A stretch of 27,925 nucleotides of DNA from Gemmatimonadota bacterium. GTDB taxonomy: Bacteria > Latescibacterota > UBA2968 > UBA8231. This document shows, piece after piece, positions 4,402 through 16,964 of this stretch (position 1 is its first letter; each line of letters opens with the position of its first letter). Under the pieces are notes generated by a model. The model saw only the letters and a list, made by a program, of their open reading frames with translations, searched no databases and had not been told where the DNA came from. A program made the translations under genes and the position numbers. The stretch spans positions 1 to 27,925 of the forward strand of contig PATE01000108.1 in assembly GCA_002712305.1 (NCBI GenBank). Direction: 5' to 3'.

Positions 4402-4444
4402 TTGACCATGCTCCACCCCCTAGGTATACTGCACAAACGTTCAG
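4402..4444 (+). promoter_or_regulatory. SOS promoter with LexA-type operator upstream of imuB
   Basis: TTGACC at 4402-4407, a 17-bp spacer, then TATACT at 4425-4430 form a near-consensus sigma70 promoter. An imperfect palindrome, CTGCACAAACGTTCAG at 4429-4444, overlaps the -10 box and the expected start of transcription. It fits CTG-N10-CAG and nearly fits GAAC-N4-GTTC, the two well-known LexA box types. The same arrangement recurs at 9301-9343. LexA repression is inferred; no lexA gene is in the window. The rest of the gap, 4283-4401, shows nothing recognisable. Confidence 0.8.
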
Positions 4445-4471
4445 CTTCGCCACCCCCCCTAACTCTTCAAC

Positions 4472-5800
4472 GTGCGTGCAACATTGGACCTCACCTGCCT
4501 CCACATCCCCCAATTCCCTGCCTGGTCCCTCTCCCAACGCTGGTGCCTCGACAATACCGGCACCGGAGGATCGGAGACCCGCCCGATCATCGTCTGCGAA
4601 AAGGGCAGAGTCCTTTCGATGATCGATGAGCGTCTGGAGCACAAAGGGATTCGGATCGGAGACCCCGTCGATCGCGCTCGTCGGCTGGCACCGGGCGCGC
4701 AATTCCTGCTGCGCGATCCGGATGTGGAACGCGCCTTGTGGGAGAGCATCCTCGGCAGATTGGTGGGACTGACGCCGCAGATCCAGCCCATCCCCGATCC
4801 TCTCCGGCCTGTACCGAGGAGACGGCCCAAAGGCAGAAAACGCAAGGGCACCAACGCCCACGACCTGTTCGCTTCCATGGGTGATCCCGAGCTGACCGAA
4901 TCTGATGATTCGGCAGGCCTTTGGGACAACGGCGCCTGGGCAATCCTGCAGGGACCCTATGCGGATGGCATTGAAGCACTGGCTACCGAATGGGGTGCTC
5001 AGGTCGGACGCGGTCATCGGCGCAGTTGGGCCATGCTCGCCGCGGCGTATTCGAAACCGGGACAGATCACCACCGTCCCCCAGCCGATGATCACTAAATT
5101 TTTACGGCAGGCACCGATCGAACTGTTGCAAAGCCTGTGCTTCTCATCCGATCTCATCGAACGCCTGCACCTATTCGGCCTCAAGGCGATCGGTCACATC
5201 TTCGGCCTCACCAAGCGTCAGTTGATGGCGCAGTTCATCGACGAAGGCCGCCGCCTCTACGACCTGCTCCATCCCGACGACCGGGAACCTCCCGTCAGCA
5301 ACTACGACCGACGCACGCTGATGGCTGACTACGAATTCGACTGGCCTGTCTTCGAACCCGGTGATCTGCAGCCGGTGTTGAAGAAGCTGCTCGAAGATTT
5401 GATCGATGACTTGGGAGAGTTGTGCACCCGGCACCTGGAAGTGCGGCTGCATCATCGCCGGCGTGCGGATCGGTTCGCCCATCGGATTCTGAAAGACCCG
5501 ACCCGGTCGCTGCACACGCTGGGTACGATCGGCGATACGCTGTTGATGCAGACACTGCAAGACGCCGGCTCGAGTCGACGACCCACGGGGCGTTCGGTGG
5601 ATCGAGTGTCGGTAACGATGAGTGGGCTGACGCGTGTGGCGCCGGTACAGGCCGAACTGTTCCGTCAGCGGCCCGAGCTCAAACCGGTGGTATTGCGCGT
5701 GGAGGCTCGTTTTCCGGGAAGGCTGGTGCGCCCCGTGCATGCCCACGCAGATCCGTTCTTCCCAGAGGAGGAATATCGACTGGTGCCGATTGCCGTGTGA
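4472..5800 (+). CDS. imuB: ImuB-like Y-family DNA polymerase homologue (SOS mutasome)
   Basis: A 442-residue Y-family polymerase-like protein. In active Y-family enzymes the first strand carries acidic metal ligands; here it reads LDLTCLHIPQFPAW near residues 5-18, without the aspartate pattern, as in ImuB proteins that act as scaffolds. An Arg/Lys-rich and then acidic insertion (about residues 110-150) interrupts the palm. The C-terminal part resembles the little-finger region, and QAELF at 393-397 matches the beta-clamp-binding consensus QxxLF. In known systems ImuB recruits DnaE2 to the clamp for translesion synthesis. The start is GTG at 4472, about 35 nt after the predicted transcription start and without a clear Shine-Dalgarno site. 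No ImuA is adjacent. DnaE2 lies 4 kb downstream under a twin promoter. Confidence 0.82.
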   Translation: MRATLDLTCLHIPQFPAWSLSQRWCLDNTGTGGSETRPIIVCEKGRVLSMIDERLEHKGIRIGDPVDRARRLAPGAQFLLRDPDVERALWESILGRLVGLTPQIQPIPDPLRPVPRRRPKGRKRKGTNAHDLFASMGDPELTESDDSAGLWDNGAWAILQGPYADGIEALATEWGAQVGRGHRRSWAMLAAAYSKPGQITTVPQPMITKFLRQAPIELLQSLCFSSDLIERLHLFGLKAIGHIFGLTKRQLMAQFIDEGRRLYDLLHPDDREPPVSNYDRRTLMADYEFDWPVFEPGDLQPVLKKLLEDLIDDLGELCTRHLEVRLHHRRRADRFAHRILKDPTRSLHTLGTIGDTLLMQTLQDAGSSRRPTGRSVDRVSVTMSGLTRVAPVQAELFRQRPELKPVVLRVEARFPGRLVRPVHAHADPFFPEEEYRLVPIAV

Positions 5801-5869
5801 GGCATACCACCCCATCGTAGACGAGAACAACCTCCAACTCAGCCGCTCTCGCCACACAAAGGACCTGAC

Positions 5870-6658
5870 ATGGAATCTGAGATCGTCGACTACGAATCCT
5901 TCGGCGCCAAAGGCGATGGGGTTACCGACGACCTGCCCGCCATCTGCAGGGCCCACGACCACGCCAACAGCCATGGTCTGTGCGTGCGCACGAAACCCGA
6001 CGCGACCTATCATCTCGGCCGACGCGACCTGACGGCCCGGATCGCCACCGACACAGATTGGAGTACCTCTCGATTCACGATCGACGATTCGACACAAGTC
6101 GAGAACCACCGGGGCTCCCTCTTCGAAATCATATCCCTCCTCGAGCCCGAGACGATCACCCTCGATCGTCTGTCATGCGATCAACGACAGACCGCTGTGC
6201 ACCCCTCCCACGACAGCTTCGTCCGAGTCGAGGATGACTCTCGCCGACTCTTCATTCGTCGTGGTCTTAATCAGAATGCCGGTGTCCCTCAGAGCGATTG
6301 TTTCGTCCTGCGCCGTGACGGTTCGATCGAGGCCGATATCGATTGGGACTACGAGTGAATGACCCAAATCGATACCCGGCCAATCGACGACGACGCCCTC
6401 TACATCCGCGGCGGTGTCTTCACGACCTACGCGAACCGCGAGCACCATCCTGACGGCTACAATTACTGGAGCCGGAACATCGCCATCTCACGCTCGAACA
6501 CCGAGATCCAAGGCCTGACGCACTATGTCACAGGTGAGATCGATGTAGGCTGCCCCTACAGCGGTTTTCTCAATGCCCATCACTGCGCCCACATCACTTT
6601 CCGTGACTGCTGGTCCACGGGGCACAGCCCGCGAGACGAGCCGCGGGCCGTAGCGTAG
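5870..6658 (+). pseudogene. Truncated, interrupted pectate-lyase-superfamily (beta-helix) gene
   Basis: The N-terminal half matches the pectate-lyase-3/phage-tail-spike type of right-handed beta-helix: DYESFGAKGDGVTDDLPAI at about residues 7-25 is the classic start of the domain. The frame reads 162 residues to TGA at 6356-6358, followed directly by ATG in the same frame. The protein then continues with PIDDDALYIRGGVFTTYAN, VTGEIDVGCPYSGFLN and FRDCWSTGH. After that the similarity stops and the frame closes at TAG 6656-6658. Relatives would continue for another 150 or more residues of helix coils, so the 3' part is gone. A good ribosome site (AAAGGA, 6 nt before ATG 5870) remains. It lies just behind imuB, so it is co-transcribed with it unless a terminator was missed. 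Confidence 0.72.
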
Positions 6659-6715
6659 CGCCCGGAGGTGTCGGCGCGACGATGTGAAGACAATCCATCC
6701 TGCACACGCCGCCCC

Positions 6716-7825
6716 TTAGCCCCAAACCTCGTCCGCAACGCGCACGACGAGTTCCAGCTTCTGCCGCTGCTCTTCGTAACTCAACCGGTTTCCCCGCAGC
6801 GAACTGGCGAAGCCGCACTGCGGACCCACAGCCAGTCGATCCAACGAGACGAAATCGCTCGCCTCGAGCACCCGTTGTACGAGTTCGGGTTGGGACTCCA
6901 GGTGCCCCGTCTTCGTCGTCACGACACCAAGCACCACCTGGCAATCGTCGCTCAAATGTCGTAGCGGCTCGAAACTGCCGGATCGCGGATCGTCGTATTC
7001 CATCAGGAAACGATTCACGCGCAGGCGAGGCAGCAGGCGCGTGGCGAGCATTTCGTAATCGCCCTCGGCCAGCCATCGACTCTCCTGATTTCCTCGGCAT
7101 AGATGTACTGCGAAGGTGACCTGGTCACCGTGATCTGCGATGACGGCATTGTCGAGGTCGGCCCCCATGTCGAACCATCGATCCGCCGTCCAACCTCTCG
7201 ACTCGTAGAAGGCCCGCGTCGACGGATCGCTGATCAGTGGATAGTGGGGCGCGTCGAGTTGGATATATGTCGCGCCGAGGTCGACGAGCCTGGCCACCTC
7301 TTCTCGAAGCAGGGCGACCACATCCGCCAGAAAGGAATCCAGCGTGGAATACGGACCCTCTTCGGACCAGAAGTTGGCCCACAAGCTTGGGCTCGACAGG
7401 CTGACCTTGGGAATGCGATCGGTGTGCGTCCGGAGATAGGTGAATTCATCCGCCGTAGGGAAGCTGCGCCGGCGAAGGGGGCCGGTGATGCCGATGCCGG
7501 GAGGCCGCTGTACGCTCTGATCACCCACTGCTGAATCGCCGCGCCAGTCCCCCCATAGGAACGCGTCCAGGTCGAACGCCCCAAACCCTTCTACCGCCGC
7601 CGGCAACTGCGCCTGGAAAGAGAGGCGGCGCATCTCTCCGTCAGAGAGCACGGGTAGCCCGACACCCTCCTGCAGCGCGATCGCCTCGTCGACGGCGCGA
7701 TCCTCCGCCGCTTTGAAGTCGGCCGATGACAGGTCGCCCGCCTCATGTTTCTGCCGCGCCGCCAACAACCAGTCGGGACGCAGGAGAGATCCCACGACAT
7801 CAGCATGTATCGCCGGTTCGCTCAT
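6716..7825 (-). CDS. MetE C-terminal-like (cobalamin-independent) zinc methyltransferase
   Basis: A 369-residue single-domain protein of the UROD/MetE superfamily, the short YxjG/YxjH-like class rather than the 750-residue MetE. The zinc site is complete: H241 and C243 in HLCRGNQ, E276 in FLMEYDD, and C337 in VGPQCGF. The start HADVVGSLLRP is the usual N-terminal strand of this class. The family moves methyl groups to thiols such as homocysteine; the methyl donor of short members is often unknown and need not be folate. It is transcribed with the upstream beta-propeller gene (47-bp gap). The ATG at 7825 has a modest ribosome site (AGCAGG). It converges on the broken pectate-lyase-like gene. 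Confidence 0.85.
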   Translation of the reverse strand: MSEPAIHADVVGSLLRPDWLLAARQKHEAGDLSSADFKAAEDRAVDEAIALQEGVGLPVLSDGEMRRLSFQAQLPAAVEGFGAFDLDAFLWGDWRGDSAVGDQSVQRPPGIGITGPLRRRSFPTADEFTYLRTHTDRIPKVSLSSPSLWANFWSEEGPYSTLDSFLADVVALLREEVARLVDLGATYIQLDAPHYPLISDPSTRAFYESRGWTADRWFDMGADLDNAVIADHGDQVTFAVHLCRGNQESRWLAEGDYEMLATRLLPRLRVNRFLMEYDDPRSGSFEPLRHLSDDCQVVLGVVTTKTGHLESQPELVQRVLEASDFVSLDRLAVGPQCGFASSLRGNRLSYEEQRQKLELVVRVADEVWG

Positions 7826-7872
7826 CGATGCCTGCTACTGAGCCTCTTGTTCTGGCGTGCTCAACCTGGCGC

Positions 7873-9276
7873 TCACTCGGTGAAGCCGAACCCGTAGAGA
7901 TCGACGGTCCCCGTCATCTCGAACTCCAGGCGGATCTCTCGACCCGCGAGGGTTCCGATGGGTTTGCCGTCCCATGATATTTCCTGCCGCACCCCGTCAC
8001 CCGTGATGGGCCGACTCTCCTCGAAGCCGGGCACGTCTTTCCGTTCGAAGTCGGTCACCTTGACGCGTACTTTCCCCGACGACGCCTCGGCATTCACCCA
8101 CAAGCGACCCGAGGGACAGATGAGGGTCTTGGTCACCACGAAGCCCCCACCCGGTGGCGACTGCAGTGACGCGAAACCCTCCTTGCGCATCGTCGCCAAC
8201 CCGATGCCGGGTACGGGATCGATTTCGTGATGGCGACCGGAGGTGCCCCCATAAAAGATCCACCACTCGTCCCCGACTTCCACCCATCCCGAAGCGTGGA
8301 CCATGCCTCCATCCCAACTGCCTTCCTCACCAACATCGATGAACCGGACACGATCTGCAGGCCGCTGGAAGTGCATGCCATCACGACTGGTGGCGAGGCC
8401 GACGGTGATGTCCTGCTGGTGCTGGTAAGACCACAGGAAACCGATATAGGTGTCGCCATAGATCCGTGTCGGCATGCCGTAGAAGTAGTTGTGATTCGTC
8501 TCGGCATCGACCTGATCCGGCAGCAGGACGTTCTCCGAGCGCAGAGGCCACTCCTCCCATAGCGCTGTGTGTTCCAGCCGACCGACCTTGCGCCGTGCAC
8601 CGCGGGTGTGATAGAGGTTCGTCGCCCGCGTGAACCATACGAAGCGCTCAGTTTTCTCATCCCACACGATCGTACCGTGTGTGTCGGGCGTGTAGTCGGT
8701 GGCGATGCACGTGTCACTGGCCGGATCCCAGTGGATCCCATCCTGCGAGCCGATCAGACGTGACGATTTCGGATCGTCCGTCAGATAGAGCATCACATAC
8801 TTGTAGCCGCGCTTGAAACGCTCCGGCACATGGAGGAGATAGGGAGACTCAGCCCGTCCGCCTGTCGGTCCCAACAGGACGACGTTGTTGTCCTTCGTCC
8901 CCTTGAACTCGTGCTCTCCGATCCGCGGCAAAGTCCAGTCGAGTCCGTCGGACGACTCCGCGTAGGCGATGGCATACGTGTAGAGCCGTGGCTCCATGCT
9001 TTGGTCCCAGTATTCCTGGTACCACATGCGGAAGAGCCCATCCTCTTCGTCTCGTATCACATTGAGCAGTCCGCCTTGACCCGGAATGAGCGGATTGCGG
9101 GGATGTTTGATCGGTGCGTGAAAGCGTCGGATCACCGTCTCGGTGAGATACTCCACCCCCCACCGGTTGTCGACGAGATGGTCGTCGATGAAGAGCTGCG
9201 ATGTCGTACCGATATCGTGCGTGTTCAAGGATTCCCCCTGAGAATGAGCAGGTTGTGAAGGATAATTCGTGACCAT
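7873..9276 (-). CDS. Glycoside-hydrolase 32/43-type five-bladed beta-propeller protein
   Basis: A 467-residue protein with no signal peptide. QLFIDDHLVDNRWGVE (about 27-42) and the repeated blade patterns (FRMWYQEYW, YAIAYAESSDGLDW, GLATSRDGMHF, WWIFYGGTSGRHHE) are typical of the GH32/GH43-like propeller proteins common in Planctomycetota-type genomes. The last 100 residues form a beta-sandwich-like tail (VRVKVTDFERKDVPGF, ending in LYGFGFTE). Many members of this class have no proven hydrolase activity, and I cannot assign the acidic catalytic triad. The start is uncertain: ATG at 9276 has no ribosome site, whereas TTG at 9228 follows AGGGGG by a few bases and would drop 16 polar residues. 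Its promoter must lie against or inside the divergent SOS promoter at 9301-9343. Confidence 0.78.
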   Translation of the reverse strand: MVTNYPSQPAHSQGESLNTHDIGTTSQLFIDDHLVDNRWGVEYLTETVIRRFHAPIKHPRNPLIPGQGGLLNVIRDEEDGLFRMWYQEYWDQSMEPRLYTYAIAYAESSDGLDWTLPRIGEHEFKGTKDNNVVLLGPTGGRAESPYLLHVPERFKRGYKYVMLYLTDDPKSSRLIGSQDGIHWDPASDTCIATDYTPDTHGTIVWDEKTERFVWFTRATNLYHTRGARRKVGRLEHTALWEEWPLRSENVLLPDQVDAETNHNYFYGMPTRIYGDTYIGFLWSYQHQQDITVGLATSRDGMHFQRPADRVRFIDVGEEGSWDGGMVHASGWVEVGDEWWIFYGGTSGRHHEIDPVPGIGLATMRKEGFASLQSPPGGGFVVTKTLICPSGRLWVNAEASSGKVRVKVTDFERKDVPGFEESRPITGDGVRQEISWDGKPIGTLAGREIRLEFEMTGTVDLYGFGFTE

Positions 9277-9300
9277 CCCAATCGACAGGGTGTAAGAGCC

Positions 9301-9343
9301 TTGACCCAGTTCCCATCCGGGAATATACTGAACAAATGTTCAG
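9301..9343 (+). promoter_or_regulatory. SOS promoter with LexA-type operator upstream of the dnaE2 unit
   Basis: TTGACC at 9301-9306, a 17-bp spacer and TATACT at 9324-9329 repeat the imuB promoter exactly in boxes and spacing. The operator CTGAACAAATGTTCAG (9328-9343) is a 7-2-7 perfect inverted repeat. It satisfies both GAAC-N4-GTTC and CTG-N10-CAG. Transcription would begin near 9336, about 75 nt before the TTG start of the small gene at 9410. The operator also lies within 70 bp of the divergent beta-propeller gene and could affect it. Confidence 0.85.
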
Positions 9344-9409
9344 CATTTAAACTCATCGCGCTCCCCACCTCACAGGCCCTGACTCACTCTGCTGCCGAGG
9401 TCGCGAAAC

Positions 9410-9762: not shown

Positions 9763-12700
9763 ATGGCCCGGTTGAGCTGGTACGTCGTGTTCGTTCACCT
9801 GCACACACGCAGCTGGTTTTCCTTTGGCGCCGGCGGCTCCTCTCCCGAGGCCCTCGTCACCCGTGCCGCCGAACTCGGCCAGCCGGCGCTCGGGCTCACC
9901 GACTTGCACGGTGTCTACGGCATGGTGCGTTTTCAAAAGGCCTGCAAGGCCATGGGGATCCACGCCGTCGTCGGAAGCGAGGTCCTCGTCGATGGTTCGC
10001 CCCTCGTGTTGCTCGCACGGTCCCCTGCCGGTTACCGCGATCTGTGTTCGTTGCTGACCCGGGCTCATCTGGCCAGCGCTGGTCTGCAGGATGGGGACCT
10101 GGCGCTGCTCGGAGAACGCATGGCGATGTCGGGGGCTCGTTCGGTCGCCGACGTGGGCCGTCTTGTCTCTGCGAACGCTGACTTCGCCAACCCTGATTCA
10201 GAGAGCCCTGACTCATCGGCCCCATCAGGTTTCGGTCCTTCCGACGTCGACGATGATCCCAGCAATGCCCCGAACGTCGGCGAGATCCGCTTCGTTGGCA
10301 GTGGCGACACAATGACGCCTCTCAACATTCTGCCTACACCCAAACGACCGGTACCTACGGTCACTCTCGAATTGCTCGGCACCTACGCCGACGATCTGAT
10401 TTGCCTCACGGCAGGACGTTCAGGGACTCTCTGGCAACTCACCTCCCGTCGCCAGGACACGGCGGCCATTTCCTGGCTACGGACCCTGCGCGAGATCTTC
10501 GACGATAGCCCTGGCCATAAAGCCTGCGGCCGCCGCCTCTATGTCGAACTCATGCACGGCCTACTGCCCGAAGACGGCACTGTCGCCGCCCGTCTGCATC
10601 ATCTGGCGTGCACCGAACAGTTGCCCACCGTCGTCACCAACGACGTGCGATTCGCCACACCCGCAAATTGGCGTCGCTACGATCTGCTCACCTGCGCCCG
10701 ACTCAACATCCGCGTCAGCGAGCCCCACGCTGAACGTCCGCGCAACGCCGAAGCGTATTTGAAGTCCGAAGCGCAATTGCGACATCTGCTGCCTTACCCG
10801 GACGCCTTTGATCGCACTGTGGAGATCGCCGAATCCTGTCGTGTCGATCTCGTGCCCGAATACATCACACCGCCGGCGGCGATCATCCCCGCAGGAAAAA
10901 CGGCGCGGAGCTACCTGACTGAACTGTGCGATGCCGGCCTGCAAGACCTCTACGCTCCGGACCAACGCGCCGCGGCTCAGGCACAATACGATCGTGAATT
11001 GAAGGTCATCACCGATCTGGAGCTGGAGGAATTCTTCCTCGTCGTGCACGAAGTCGTTTCCGTCGCACGTCAACGGGGCATCCGTTGCGCCGGACGCGGC
11101 TCGGCAGCCAACAGCATCATCGCCTTTTTGTTGCGCATCACCGCCGTCGACCCCATTCGCCACAACCTGCTCTTCGAACGCTTCCTGCACGGCGAACGCA
11201 AAGGCACCCCCGACATCGACGTCGACTTTGACGCCGACCGCCGCGACGAGGTCATCGACTGGATGGAGCGACGCTTCGGCATCGAACAGACGGCGATGAC
11301 GGCGACGTTGATCACCTACAAACTGCGACTCGCCCTGCGCGATGTGGCCAAAGCCCTCGGTTGGCCCATGCCCAAAGTCGACGCCCTGTCGCAGACCGTG
11401 CCCTCCGGTCTGGCCAATGAAGTCACCGAATACCGCGAACCCATTCAGAGTGTCCTCGGCGACGCCCCATTGGTAGACCTGCTCTTGGAACGTGTCGCCG
11501 ATCTTCACCTGTGCCCCCGCCACCTCGGCCTGCACTCCGGCGGCATGGTCCTGTCGCGCAAACCCCTCTCCCATTTCACCCCGATTCAGGTTTCGGCCAA
11601 TGGCGTGAAGATGGTCACCTTCGACAAAGAAGACGTCGAAGCCATGGGGCTGGTGAAACTCGACGTCCTCGGTCTGCGCATGATGGCCTGCCTGAGCGAA
11701 GGCGCCGCCCTGGTCCATCGTCACGAAGGCATCGAGATCGATTTTGAGACCCTCCCCCTCGATGACCCGGGTGTCTACGAGCTGATCTGTTCGGGGCAGA
11801 CGGTGACCCTCTTCCAGATCGAGTCCCAGGGGCAGATGCATTTAATCGCGCAGAATCAGCCCGAGTGTTTCGACGATCTCGTCGCCGAAGTCGCCCTCTT
11901 CCGCCCTGGCCCTCTACAGTCGGGCATGATCCACCCCTTCATTCGCCGACGCCGCGGTCTGGAACCCGTCGTCTACGAACACCCCAGCCTCGAGCCGATT
12001 CTCGCCGACACGTACGGCGTCATCCTTTTCCAGGAACAGATCCTCGATGTAGCCCATCGTTTCGCCGGCATGTCCCTGTCCGATGCAGACGACTTTCGCC
12101 AACTCATGTCCAAGACCCACGACCCGGTCAGAATGGGTCAGATGGGTGTGCAATTCATCGCTGGCGCCATCGCCAAAGGCGTGCCACCACCGATTGCCGA
12201 ATCGGTATTCGAAAAAGTATCCCACTTCGTCGGCTACGGATTCTGCCGCTCCCACGCGGCGGCCTTCGCCCAGACCGTCTATCACTCCGCCTGGATGAAG
12301 CGGTATCACCCCGCAGCCCATCTGGCGGCCTTCATGCAGCACCGCCCCGGCTTCTACAACCTCATGACCCTCGAAGAAGAGGCGAGACGATTCAGCATCC
12401 CCACCCTGCTACCGACGGTCGACGAATCCACGGCGCGCTACGATCTGGTGCGATTGTCTGATGGCCGTCTCGGCATTCGCAAACCCCTCACGTCAATCAA
12501 AGGCCTCGCCGAAGAAGCGGTGGAGCAAATCCTCTGGGCACGACTCGCCGGTCCCTTCCGTTCGGTGGAAGATTTGGCCACCAGAGTCCCCGATCTCGAT
12601 CGCCGTGACCTGGATGCGTTGGCCAAGTCCGGTGCTCTCGACACCCTCACCGGTTCCAGTCGCAGGGCACTGTGGGAAACCGGTGTCGTGGCCAACAGAA

Positions 12701-13386
12701 GAGATGCCGGCGGCGATCGGTCTCACCAACCGAGTCTCTTCGACATGCCTCTTTTGATGGAAGAGGACGTCCCCGACCTGCCCGTGCTGAGTGCCGCCGA
12801 GAGATTGTCCTGGGACTACCGATCCACAGGAGCCGGTCGCGTCCATCCCATTACCCTGGCCAGACGCCACCTTAACGACATGGGCATTCCCACCATCGAA
12901 AGCTGCCAGCGCACGATGGTTTTGCCTGGAGACGGCACGAGCCCAAAGGCCACATCCAACGATCTGCAAGGCCCCGTGGTTACCCTCGCCGGCGTCGTCA
13001 TCATGCGCCAGCGACCGCCCACGGCCAAAGGGTTCATGTTCGTGACACTGGAAGACGAAACCAGCTTCATCCAGGTCATCGTCCATCCAAAGATCTACGA
13101 GCAGTACTACGAGCTGCTCATCAAACCGGCCCTGCTCTTCAAAGGTCCCCTGCAAGCCACAGGCACCTGGCGTGCTCTGCTGGCGAAAGAAGTCTGGCCC
13201 CTCGAAGGTGTCTTCGGCGGCTACGCCGGTTTCCCCTCCGCCGCCGGTCACCAGAACGCCGGCGATGCCGGCAAGCAAGTCGTGCGTGCCGGACAAGCCC
13301 TCGAAGGCGATGGCTCCGGAGACGATCTGGCCAAGATCGCAGCGGGGGGATCTGTGTTTCGATCGCGGACCAGGAGAACGGGGTGA
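9763..13386 (+). CDS. dnaE2: Error-prone DNA polymerase III alpha subunit DnaE2
   Basis: A 1207-residue C-family polymerase; DnaE2 proteins are usually nearer 1050-1100. The PHP domain starts with HLHTRSWFSFG at 12-22. The palm carries the catalytic motif PDIDVDF at 483-489, and the finger region GYGFCRSHAAAFA is near 825-837. Helix-hairpin-helix sequences follow. An OB fold lies at about 1065-1150 (GPVVTLAGVVIMRQRPPTAKG), and there is no DnaE1-type C-terminal tau-binding extension. Extra length comes from an acidic Ser/Pro/Asp insertion near residues 145-185 and from a Gly/Ala-rich tail. It performs translesion synthesis with ImuB under SOS control. ATG 9763 is the longest start; GTG 9787 gives the family-like N-terminus MFVHLHTRSWFSF and may be the true one. 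Neither has a strong ribosome site. Confidence 0.93.
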   Translation: MARLSWYVVFVHLHTRSWFSFGAGGSSPEALVTRAAELGQPALGLTDLHGVYGMVRFQKACKAMGIHAVVGSEVLVDGSPLVLLARSPAGYRDLCSLLTRAHLASAGLQDGDLALLGERMAMSGARSVADVGRLVSANADFANPDSESPDSSAPSGFGPSDVDDDPSNAPNVGEIRFVGSGDTMTPLNILPTPKRPVPTVTLELLGTYADDLICLTAGRSGTLWQLTSRRQDTAAISWLRTLREIFDDSPGHKACGRRLYVELMHGLLPEDGTVAARLHHLACTEQLPTVVTNDVRFATPANWRRYDLLTCARLNIRVSEPHAERPRNAEAYLKSEAQLRHLLPYPDAFDRTVEIAESCRVDLVPEYITPPAAIIPAGKTARSYLTELCDAGLQDLYAPDQRAAAQAQYDRELKVITDLELEEFFLVVHEVVSVARQRGIRCAGRGSAANSIIAFLLRITAVDPIRHNLLFERFLHGERKGTPDIDVDFDADRRDEVIDWMERRFGIEQTAMTATLITYKLRLALRDVAKALGWPMPKVDALSQTVPSGLANEVTEYREPIQSVLGDAPLVDLLLERVADLHLCPRHLGLHSGGMVLSRKPLSHFTPIQVSANGVKMVTFDKEDVEAMGLVKLDVLGLRMMACLSEGAALVHRHEGIEIDFETLPLDDPGVYELICSGQTVTLFQIESQGQMHLIAQNQPECFDDLVAEVALFRPGPLQSGMIHPFIRRRRGLEPVVYEHPSLEPILADTYGVILFQEQILDVAHRFAGMSLSDADDFRQLMSKTHDPVRMGQMGVQFIAGAIAKGVPPPIAESVFEKVSHFVGYGFCRSHAAAFAQTVYHSAWMKRYHPAAHLAAFMQHRPGFYNLMTLEEEARRFSIPTLLPTVDESTARYDLVRLSDGRLGIRKPLTSIKGLAEEAVEQILWARLAGPFRSVEDLATRVPDLDRRDLDALAKSGALDTLTGSSRRALWETGVVANRRDAGGDRSHQPSLFDMPLLMEEDVPDLPVLSAAERLSWDYRSTGAGRVHPITLARRHLNDMGIPTIESCQRTMVLPGDGTSPKATSNDLQGPVVTLAGVVIMRQRPPTAKGFMFVTLEDETSFIQVIVHPKIYEQYYELLIKPALLFKGPLQATGTWRALLAKEVWPLEGVFGGYAGFPSAAGHQNAGDAGKQVVRAGQALEGDGSGDDLAKIAAGGSVFRSRTRRTG

Positions 13387-13869: not shown

Positions 13870-14967
13870 ATGCTCCTACACCCATCCACGACAACCGAAG
13901 CCCGCAAAACCACCCCTGCCAACGTCCGAGGCCGCGGCGCTGCCACGAACACGCCCAACCGCTTCGACCCACTCCACATCGAACCCGACACGGTCGAACC
14001 GGATGAAGAAGACTTCGAACGTCGACAACCCGCTCAATACTTCGACGATGCGTCCCGTTCCATCCTGGCCAGCAACGACAGTCCCGACGTGGGATTCACC
14101 TACAGCATCAATCCCTACAGAGGTTGCTCCCACGGATGCATTTATTGCTATGCTCGCCCTACGCACGAATACCTCGGCTTCTCCGCCGGTCTCGACTTCG
14201 AAACCAAGATCCTCGTCAAACAGGATGCACCCGACCTGCTGCGGGAGACGTTCCGAAAGAAATCGTGGGAGCCGCAGGTCGTCGCGTTGTCTGGCAACAC
14301 CGACTGTTATCAGCCCGTAGAGAAACGTCTCGAGATTACGCGCCAGTGTCTGGAGGTCTTTCTCGAATTCCGCAATCCCGTCACGATGATCACCAAGAAC
14401 CAACTCGTGACGCGCGACATCGATCTGCTGCAGCAACTGGCCGAACATGATCTGGTGCACGTCACCCTTTCCGTCACGAGTCTCAGACCTGCCCTGACGG
14501 GAGTTCTCGAGCCGCGCACATCCCGACCCAAGCAGCGCTTGGCCGCGATCTCGGCACTGGCAGGGGCTGGCGTGCCGGTTGGCATCAATGTGGCGCCACT
14601 GATCCCGGGGTTGAACGACGAGGAGGTCCCCAACATCCTCGAGGCAGCGGCCAAGGCAGGCGCCCAGTGGGCGAACTATATCATGGTGCGCCTGCCCGGT
14701 GCGGTTCGGCCGCTGTTTCTCGAGTGGCTCGAGCGCCACATGCCCGATCGTGCCAGCAAGATTCAGAGTCGACTGAAGAAGGTCCGCGATGGCGAACTGT
14801 CCGATCCACGCTTCGAGTCTCGTATGCGTGGGGAAGGCGAACTTGCCGACCTGATCTCCAGGTTCTTCACTCTGGCACGCAGACGTCACGGATTGGAAGG
14901 GTTTCAGCACGAGTTAGCGACCCACCACTTCCGTCGTCGTGGTCATCTTCAGTTGGAACTGTTCTGA
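13870..14967 (+). CDS. PA0069-type radical SAM protein (spore photoproduct lyase-like)
   Basis: A 365-residue radical S-adenosylmethionine enzyme. The 4Fe-4S cluster ligands are C86, C90 and C93 in YRGCSHGCIYCYARP. The N-terminal VRGRGAATNTPNRF (19-32) and the C-terminal HLQLELF ending are hallmarks of the widespread PA0069 family, which is related to spore photoproduct lyase (SplB) but lacks a proven reaction. SplB repairs UV-damaged thymine in DNA, and the position right behind an SOS polymerase makes a DNA-repair role attractive but unproven. ATG at 13870 has only a weak ribosome site (GGACAC). The stop is 11 bp before the likely start of the glycosyltransferase gene, so the two may be co-transcribed. 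Confidence 0.9.
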   Translation: MLLHPSTTTEARKTTPANVRGRGAATNTPNRFDPLHIEPDTVEPDEEDFERRQPAQYFDDASRSILASNDSPDVGFTYSINPYRGCSHGCIYCYARPTHEYLGFSAGLDFETKILVKQDAPDLLRETFRKKSWEPQVVALSGNTDCYQPVEKRLEITRQCLEVFLEFRNPVTMITKNQLVTRDIDLLQQLAEHDLVHVTLSVTSLRPALTGVLEPRTSRPKQRLAAISALAGAGVPVGINVAPLIPGLNDEEVPNILEAAAKAGAQWANYIMVRLPGAVRPLFLEWLERHMPDRASKIQSRLKKVRDGELSDPRFESRMRGEGELADLISRFFTLARRRHGLEGFQHELATHHFRRRGHLQLELF

Positions 14968-14978
14968 AGCAGGCTTCC

Positions 14979-16964
14979 TTGTCTGACACCCGCGCCACTC
15001 TGCCACCGCGATTCGTCCTGCCCCTGCTGGGGCTTTTTGTCGTTCTCGGTGTGACACTCCGCCTGCCTGGGATCGGTCGCTCTCTCGGCCACGACGAACT
15101 CTACACAATCGTCATCTTCGCATCCCGTTCGTGGCTCGACATTCTCTCCGGCTACGACCTGCCGAACAATCACATCTTTCACACGCTTTGCTTGCGCGGC
15201 GTTCAGCTCTTGCTGGGTGATGCGGAGTGGTCCCAGCGTCTGCCGGCGCTGCTGGCGGGCCTGGCGGCCATCCCTTCGCTGTACTGGTTCGCACGCCGCC
15301 TCACCGGCGCACCGACGGTAGGGCTCCTCGCCGCCCTGCTGCTTGCAGGCCATCATCTCCACATCGGCTTCTCGCAGACATCGCGAGGATACACGCTGCT
15401 CGTGCTGCTTCTATTGTTGTTTGCGGGTTTGCTATGGACAGGTATTGCGCGAGGACTGGCCCGTGGTACCGAGCGTGCCGGTACGAAGAGCCGACCCAGC
15501 AGTCGTGAGCCTGATTCAGCCCTCGCCGCGGCAACGTCTGCAAGACCTGTCGACAACGCATGGGTGTGGTTGGGGGTCGTCATCACCGGCTCTCTCGCCA
15601 CGCTGACCCTGCCAAGCGCCGCGCTGCTGATCGGGGCAGGTACGGTCGGCGCCCTCTTGCTCATCCGCCGTGGCAGTGTGGGGTCACGCCGTGTCGCCTT
15701 GATCCCTCTCGCACTAGCCATGCTTGTCATCCTCGTGCACACCGCCTTGATCTACCTGCCGCTGTGGGAGGATCTGCGCGCTCATGCCGCGCGTTTTGGT
15801 GAACCCCTGGTGTTCACCGGCTTCGCCCACTTCGTCTCCAACGTGTGGACCACCATCGGCCCACCACGCCTGGCGTGGCTCATGCACCTGTTCACCTTGT
15901 GGGGGTTGATCACACTCGAAGGTGCACGGCGCGGCTCAGGGTTGTTCCTCGGCGCTCTGATCGGTCTGCCCCTGATCCTGAATCTGGCCCTGGGTACACA
16001 GGCCGAATCACGCCTGTATGTCTTCCTCGTCCCCTTTTCTCTCGTCGCCATCGCCGCCGGTGCTGAATCCCTCCGCCTGCTTCTCCTACGCAACACAACG
16101 GGGTTGGCGCGGTGGGCATCCGCCCTTCCTATCCTCGCCGTACTGGCCAGCTTTTATCACGAGGCGGCCACTCCGATGGAGACGGGCTACCGTGATGCAG
16201 GTCGCTTCGTGACCCAGCAGACGTCTCCCGGTGATCTGGTCATTGTTCCCTACATCATGGACTTAGTCATTGGCTACTACTCCGATGGCGCCACCGTCGA
16301 ACGCCTGCGATCCATCCCCGAATCAGGAATCGATCGTGTCCTGTTCTTACATCGGCCGGGCACTCCCCGATTCAGCCTCGATGATCTGATGCTGTCGTCG
16401 AACTTCACCACCGAAGAGGCCGACCACCTCGATACCTATGCGCACCTGACACTGCCATCACAGGCGTTCGTGCAGGTCGATCGATTTGGCCCAACCGCAA
16501 TCCACACGATGCAAACGTCACCGGTCGCGATTGATCTGGGTGACCTGACGCTGGATGATGCGTGGAATCTCTACTACGTGCAGAATCCGACGACGGCGAA
16601 ATTGGCCATCACGCCCAACCAGAGATTGCGTCTGGATCCAGCGGGAGGCGCGGCGGTGCTGCACTCTCGGCGACGCGTGCGTTTTTCGGGCAATGGTTTG
16701 GCCGTGCTCGCTTTGAATCGTCGGGGAGAAGGATATGCTTCCCTGTACGAGGTCATCGATGGCGAGCCCCAGGCTGTACAGATGGTGACACCGTTGGCGG
16801 CTCCGGCGATTCACGTGGTGGACGGGGCGCGTGTGCATGCCGATGTCGCCCTCGCACCCGTGGTGTCGGGTCGTGAGTACGGTCTGTTTCTAACGGCCCA
16901 TGGTGTCGTGGAAGCCGGCAATTGGCAGTTGAGTTTTCTACCCTACAGGGAGCCCGAACCATGA
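14979..16964 (+). CDS. GT39/ArnT-like integral membrane glycosyltransferase
   Basis: About 661 residues from the TTG at 14979. The frame is open further upstream, but that part overlaps the radical SAM gene and is not credible; AGG lies 5 nt before the TTG. The N-terminal half has around ten membrane segments, with the GT-C signature GHDELYT (D39-E40) in the first external loop, as in GT39/ArnT-type enzymes that transfer sugars from polyprenyl-phosphate donors. QTSRGYTLLVLLLLL near residues 130-145 is also typical. The C-terminal 250 residues are soluble and beta-rich, and probably extracytoplasmic. The acceptor, whether protein, lipid or envelope glycan, cannot be told. It converges on the CRTAC1 gene with 31 bp between stops. 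Confidence 0.82.
   Translation: MSDTRATLPPRFVLPLLGLFVVLGVTLRLPGIGRSLGHDELYTIVIFASRSWLDILSGYDLPNNHIFHTLCLRGVQLLLGDAEWSQRLPALLAGLAAIPSLYWFARRLTGAPTVGLLAALLLAGHHLHIGFSQTSRGYTLLVLLLLLFAGLLWTGIARGLARGTERAGTKSRPSSREPDSALAAATSARPVDNAWVWLGVVITGSLATLTLPSAALLIGAGTVGALLLIRRGSVGSRRVALIPLALAMLVILVHTALIYLPLWEDLRAHAARFGEPLVFTGFAHFVSNVWTTIGPPRLAWLMHLFTLWGLITLEGARRGSGLFLGALIGLPLILNLALGTQAESRLYVFLVPFSLVAIAAGAESLRLLLLRNTTGLARWASALPILAVLASFYHEAATPMETGYRDAGRFVTQQTSPGDLVIVPYIMDLVIGYYSDGATVERLRSIPESGIDRVLFLHRPGTPRFSLDDLMLSSNFTTEEADHLDTYAHLTLPSQAFVQVDRFGPTAIHTMQTSPVAIDLGDLTLDDAWNLYYVQNPTTAKLAITPNQRLRLDPAGGAAVLHSRRRVRFSGNGLAVLALNRRGEGYASLYEVIDGEPQAVQMVTPLAAPAIHVVDGARVHADVALAPVVSGREYGLFLTAHGVVEAGNWQLSFLPYREPEP

Follow-up and report, generated by a model that had tools for sequence, protein, structure and literature searches.

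LexA-binding motifs vary widely between bacterial phyla (PMC8565304; PMC7739468). The SOS box of Bacillus subtilis and Staphylococcus aureus reads CGAAC-N4-GTTCG, and the LexA box of Escherichia coli reads TACTG(TA)5CAGTA (PMC9578287). The imuA-imuB-dnaE2 genes make up an SOS mutagenesis cassette (Erill et al. 2006, as summarized in PMC9578287), and some such cassettes are without imuA (PMC9578287). Our literature search returned no paper on a LexA operator in Latescibacterota or Gemmatimonas, although one may exist.

Here we analyzed a 27,925-nucleotide stretch of DNA (the window), in which an original prediction, made from the letters alone, had placed two SOS promoters and proposed that their palindromes define the LexA motif of the lineage. 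The window belongs to a genome of 4.77 Mb (G000; 146 contigs, 90.9% complete). Database records with close imuB homologues are labeled Gemmatimonadetes, Gemmatimonadaceae or Candidatus Latescibacterota, and these labels disagree; within the genome collection, the genomes with imuB matches fall into one family. The sister species (G020) has an ImuB 84% identical to that of the window.

Two promoters at a divided imuB and dnaE2 gene set

The features of the locus are collected in Table 1. The predicted arrangement, in which a palindrome follows TTGACC-N17-TATACTG, is present letter for letter at 4402-4444 and again at 9301-9343, with TATACTG at 4425-4431 in site 1 and at 9324-9330 in site 2. The two spacers are unrelated, as had been stated (6 of 17 positions equal, counted by eye). 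At both sites the box overlaps the -10 hexamer, a placement able to block the promoter; site 1 lies 27 bases upstream of the imuB-like frame, and site 2 lies 66 bases upstream of the DUF6504 gene. The outer six bases on each side of the site 2 box form a perfect palindrome, and this site also satisfies GAAC-N4-GTTC exactly, again as predicted. It alone has both the GAAC and the GTTC half-site, the left half being GCAC in site 1 and in most lexA sites.

Table 1. Features of the locus, in window coordinates
Feature	Position	Strand	Basis or remark
-35 hexamer TTGACC, imuB promoter	4402..4407	+	sequence
-10 hexamer TATACT, imuB promoter	4425..4430	+	17-base spacer; invariant in four-genome alignment
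Predicted LexA box CTGCACAAACGTTCAG (site 1)	4429..4444	+	overlaps -10 and start region
imuB-like gene, divergent Y-family polymerase relative	4472..5800	+	GTG start; synteny with dnaE2
Insert between imuB and DUF6504-dnaE2	5801..9300	.	absent in contiguous relatives; content partly different in G020
Decayed reading frame in insert	5870-6658		
Meth_synt_2 gene in insert	6716-7825	-	
Further gene in insert	7873-9276	-	
-35 hexamer TTGACC, DUF6504-dnaE2 promoter	9301..9306	+	kept in sister species G020
-10 hexamer TATACT, DUF6504-dnaE2 promoter	9324..9329	+	17-base spacer; sequence and G020
Predicted LexA box CTGAACAAATGTTCAG (site 2)	9328..9343	+	overlaps -10
DUF6504 gene, 95 aa	9410..9697	+	PF20114 just above cut-off; same position in relatives
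dnaE2 (imuC), error-prone polymerase III alpha subunit	9763..13386	+	NF004225 best model
PA0069-family radical SAM gene	13870..14967	+	NF033668 above cut-off; downstream neighbor

The best match of the imuB-like product to the NCBIfam pol IV models (E 9e-11 over 177-363) and its weak match to Pfam IMS_C (E 0.0016) both fall under the cut-offs, a PDB sequence search gave weak Y-family matches (best E 0.0024), and no Y-family catalytic motif was recognized in the product by eye. The product contains QAELF, which resembles a clamp motif and of which Q..LF is retained in four homologues, and the gene adjoins dnaE2 in related genomes. The predicted structure has a mean pLDDT of 39.8, and the fold is unsupported by the model. 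We refer to the gene as imuB-like, an assignment drawn from weak family scores together with synteny. The dnaE2 product, with PHP, DNA_pol3_alpha and finger domains, matches the NF004225 error-prone DNA polymerase model with E 1.5e-258 and 861 bits, under the model's cut-off of 939. The radical SAM gene lies 3' of dnaE2 also in G020, G021, G023 and G024 and possibly belongs to the same transcription unit. A listed frame at 14667-16964 shares 300 bases (14667-14967) with the radical SAM gene, and the true start of this frame therefore probably lies more to the 3' side. No dedicated ImuA (NF033429) was found above the cut-off in 25 genomes of the family, the matches in the window's own genome being its two RecA genes.

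The order of these genes differs among relatives. In g7 (L092, L093 and L094), one box stands before imuB, which is followed without interruption by DUF6504, dnaE2 and the radical SAM gene; in g6 (G019), imuB directly adjoins dnaE2 and is preceded by a box-like site, ATGCACAAATGTGCAC. In the g1 genus (G000 and G020), the insert parts imuB from the rest and a second box stands before DUF6504-dnaE2 in both species, the distance between the two boxes being 4899 bases in G000 and 4202 bases in G020. Because the order is contiguous in relatives, it is most simply read as ancestral, with the second operator belonging to the split state; the two sites would thus lie 4.9 kb apart because each serves one half of an imuB/dnaE2 set that has been split. 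Where the window has the decayed frame, G020 has one frame of 497 aa; in the window an in-frame stop ends at 6358 and the 3' part is lost. Two g5 genomes (L196:1672-7101 and L197:204-5130) have a mutasome cluster of another kind, in which dnaE2 is accompanied by an ImuA-like frame and, at the imuB position, a protein of 422-423 aa, and in G014, also of g5, a second LexA-like gene lies upstream of the mutasome cluster.

Further, in an alignment of imuB promoters from four genomes, with 54-84% identity of their ImuB proteins to that of the window, TTGACC and TATACTG-ACAAACGTTCA are unchanged whereas spacer and flanks differ, and the long unbroken conserved runs are the -35 hexamer and the -10 hexamer with the box. 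The dnaE2 box is equal in G000 and G020, within 22 consecutive identical bases in diverged surroundings, and G020 has both boxes as well, each at the corresponding gene. These data also bear on the origin of the two promoters. That they are duplicates of one promoter segment, as the equal -35 hexamers, the equal 17-base spacing and the nearly equal boxes could suggest, is improbable: within the window the spacers and flanks show no relation, and a comparison of G000 with G020 finds each box conserved on its own where the sequence around it has diverged. Such an origin would be compatible with control by LexA and, even if the duplication were ancient, both boxes have been retained. An 18-base stretch, CATCGCGCTCCCCACCTC (window 9353-9375), located 3' of the dnaE2 box, is also identical in G000 and G020, and the leader is otherwise diverged.

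The box at lexA genes of the family

The lexA gene was found in 23 of the 25 same-family genomes, and all 23 lexA promoters carry the box directly 3' of the -35 hexamer (TTGACA), where it is reversed and reads TTGACAAATGAACNNNNGTGCAGTATAT or a variant of this. The same box before canonical lexA is a hallmark of autoregulation. We built a matrix from lexA boxes of other genomes only, with no window sequence in it, and scanned the window: the site at 4428 (+) ranked first with 25.6 bits and the site at 9327 (+) second with 20.1 bits, compared with a simulated per-window maximum of 12.8 +/- 1.6 bits. Site 2 thus scores below site 1 on the lexA-derived matrix.

The conserved symmetric core is TGNAC-N4-GTNCA. 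The proposal that the two sites define the LexA motif of the lineage gains support from the lexA promoters and from the rarity of the strict motif (see below), and the motif is indeed of LexA type, but it is better written TACTG(C/A)ACANNNGTTCA than CTGAACAAATGTTCAG. Likewise, CTG-N10-CAG holds for both sites of the window, but its outer CAG is unconserved in relatives, where CAG or CAC stands at imuB and CAT at lexA. Overall, identification of both window sites as predicted LexA operators is strongly supported.

No LexA DNA-binding domain was detected in the 90.9% complete G000 assembly, and a translated search of it with the LexA of G020 found nothing. In G020, lexA lies at L182:4061-4735 on the + strand; its product has the PF01726 and PF00717 domains (DNA-binding and S24), and the gene adjoins genes that read, by eye, as glycerate kinase (gckA) and era. 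The proteins flanking LexA in G020 have no orthologues in G000, where only apparent paralogous GTPases of at most 39% identity were found. Because the whole lexA-gckA-era neighborhood is missing as well, the absence of lexA from G000 most likely reflects an assembly gap. The other genome in which lexA was not found, G006, has the same box next to the gene that is usually the divergent neighbor of lexA, with the contig ending ∼100 bases away, and therefore lexA has probably been cut off there.

We considered it very unlikely that the boxes are bound not by chromosomal LexA but by another damage-responsive repressor, such as a diverged paralog of LexA that accompanies the cassette. Some family genomes do have a second LexA-like gene, in one g5 case clustered with an ImuA-like frame and dnaE2, and the lack of a recovered LexA in the window's own assembly points the same way; against this, the box equals that before canonical lexA in the family, and G020 has a single LexA_DNA_bind match yet both boxes.

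Strict-motif matches and the two recA genes

Genome-wide counts were made with strict patterns. The strict motif TACTGNACANNNGTTCA occurs at 25 places in the 25 genomes, compared with 2 for the reversed control: 15 at lexA, 4 at imuB, 2 at dnaE2, 1 at polB and 3 elsewhere, one of the last inside a helicase reading frame. A wide spread at unrelated genes, a concern attached to the original prediction, was thus not seen, the strict motif being rare and 22 of its 25 places lying at lexA, imuB, dnaE2 or polB. The polB case is a strict box directly upstream of a family-B DNA polymerase gene in G002 (L113:1-1520). In contrast, uvrA, which had been named as a gene to look at, is not among the strict-motif matches in the 25 genomes. 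The strict regulon appears very small (lexA, the mutasome and sometimes polB), which fits the published view of translesion synthesis as the core of the SOS response.

In the window's own genome, the pattern CTGNACNNNNGTNCAG occurs at 12 places, compared with 4 for the control, and the two window sites are among them; a motif place was also found at G000:C91, and a match at G000:C114 was set aside as chance because it lies inside a UvrD-type helicase reading frame. A loose pattern (3 mismatches) was uninformative, giving ∼1300 matches, fewer than the control. Within the window, CTG-N10-CAG alone has 15 matches compared with 8.9 expected and is by itself weak evidence; the longer motif carries the information, and the 20-mer TATACTGNACAAANGTTCAG with up to three mismatches has exactly 2 matches compared with 0.00 expected from shuffles. 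Chance or compositional likeness, that is, two sigma-70 promoters with a coincidental palindrome, to which the mild enrichment of CTG-N10-CAG lends its little credit, is refuted by the 0.00 expectation for the full motif and by the family-wide concentration at SOS genes, and its probability is negligible.

Elsewhere in the class, four genomes of a different family (L168, L169, L171 and L177) have the palindrome TACTGAACATAYGTTCA ∼90 bases upstream of a gene for a sigma-70-type sigma factor, with a second gene in divergent orientation; this suggests damage control of the sigma factor. The same box lies upstream of a radical SAM gene in three genomes of that other family (L170, L179 and L180), and the product of this gene resembles, by eye, spore photoproduct lyase-like proteins.

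Nearly all family genomes have two recA genes. Of these recA genes, which the original prediction had also named for a check, one paralog fits in part, having the half-sites with a wider gap, and the other has no box. Across the -35 and -10 hexamers of recA_a, TGNACA-N17-TGTNCA is present in 21 of 22 promoters with the gap fixed (L122-L142 and L167; own-genome site L183:2595-2645), a count that overstates independence, since many of the genomes are close relatives and the spacing may be set by the geometry of the promoter. The same pattern, for which 0.002 matches are expected per 290 bases, is present in 0 of 24 recA_b promoters. The recA_a gene is without the standard box, and its site may be read either as the lexA half-sites with 15 more bases between them or as two imperfect boxes that overlap; recA_a would then likely be the damage-inducible copy. 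We put forward only tentatively, as somewhat less than an even chance, that the LexA of this lineage also recognizes a second form at recA_a, either two overlapping boxes 15 bp apart or a genuine wide-spaced operator. If so, the recA_a form and the operator of the split mutasome would show that operators are added and reshaped gene by gene.

Proposed mechanism and comparison with known systems

From the positions of the boxes, their conservation, their identity with the lexA operators, the gene content and the contiguous order in relatives, we infer how the genes may be repressed and induced, how mutagenesis may result and in which order the locus may have changed. Very probably, the two sites are LexA operators on sigma-70-type promoters controlling a damage-induced mutasome, the second operator having arisen after an insert split the unit. 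In the undamaged cell, LexA bound at the -10 and start region would block the imuB and DUF6504-dnaE2 promoters. Following DNA damage, RecA filaments would promote self-cleavage of LexA, both promoters would fire together, and the ImuB-DnaE2 mutasome would then be made for translesion synthesis. Insertion in the g1 genus would have split the ancestral imuB-(DUF6504)-dnaE2 unit, and the downstream half would have gained a LexA-controlled promoter of its own, so that co-regulation was kept.

The mechanism itself is ordinary LexA repression. What is new is the operator predicted for a lineage not described before, the presence of two operators on a split gene set and the unusual wide-spaced candidate operator at one recA. 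With every further lineage that is read, it becomes easier to follow how LexA operators change between bacterial phyla. By its letters, the motif described here comes closest to the GAAC-N4-GTTC type, its left half and flanks being specific to the lineage. It resembles the Bacillus and Staphylococcus box in half-site spacing, in its palindrome, in its presence at promoters of lexA and error-prone polymerase genes and, at site 2, in GAAC-N4-GTTC; it differs in having CTG and CAG rather than C and G as flanks, in a left half that is usually GCAC rather than GAAC and in overlapping the -10 and start region at imuB and dnaE2. With the E. coli box it shares the outer TACTG, the 16-base palindrome and, at the two sites of the window, CAG. 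However, its central ten bases carry a conserved NAC..GTN, and the outer CAG is lost at lexA genes of the family (CAT) and at imuB of relatives (CAC). The LexA motif of Myxococcus xanthus reportedly has a consensus that ends in GTTCAG and a less strict left half. The end GTTCAG would be shared with the present box, and M. xanthus likewise has two recA genes, a likeness that we regard as a lead only.

Like the imuA-imuB-dnaE2 cassette, the present locus places imuB and dnaE2 under LexA-type control, here predicted from sequence. Unlike that cassette, it shows no ImuA above the family cut-off and has a DUF6504 gene between imuB and dnaE2, and in the g1 genus the unit is split by the insert, with one operator per half. 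A split imuB/dnaE2 set with an operator on each half would provide a clean natural example of co-regulation outlasting the breakage of an operon.
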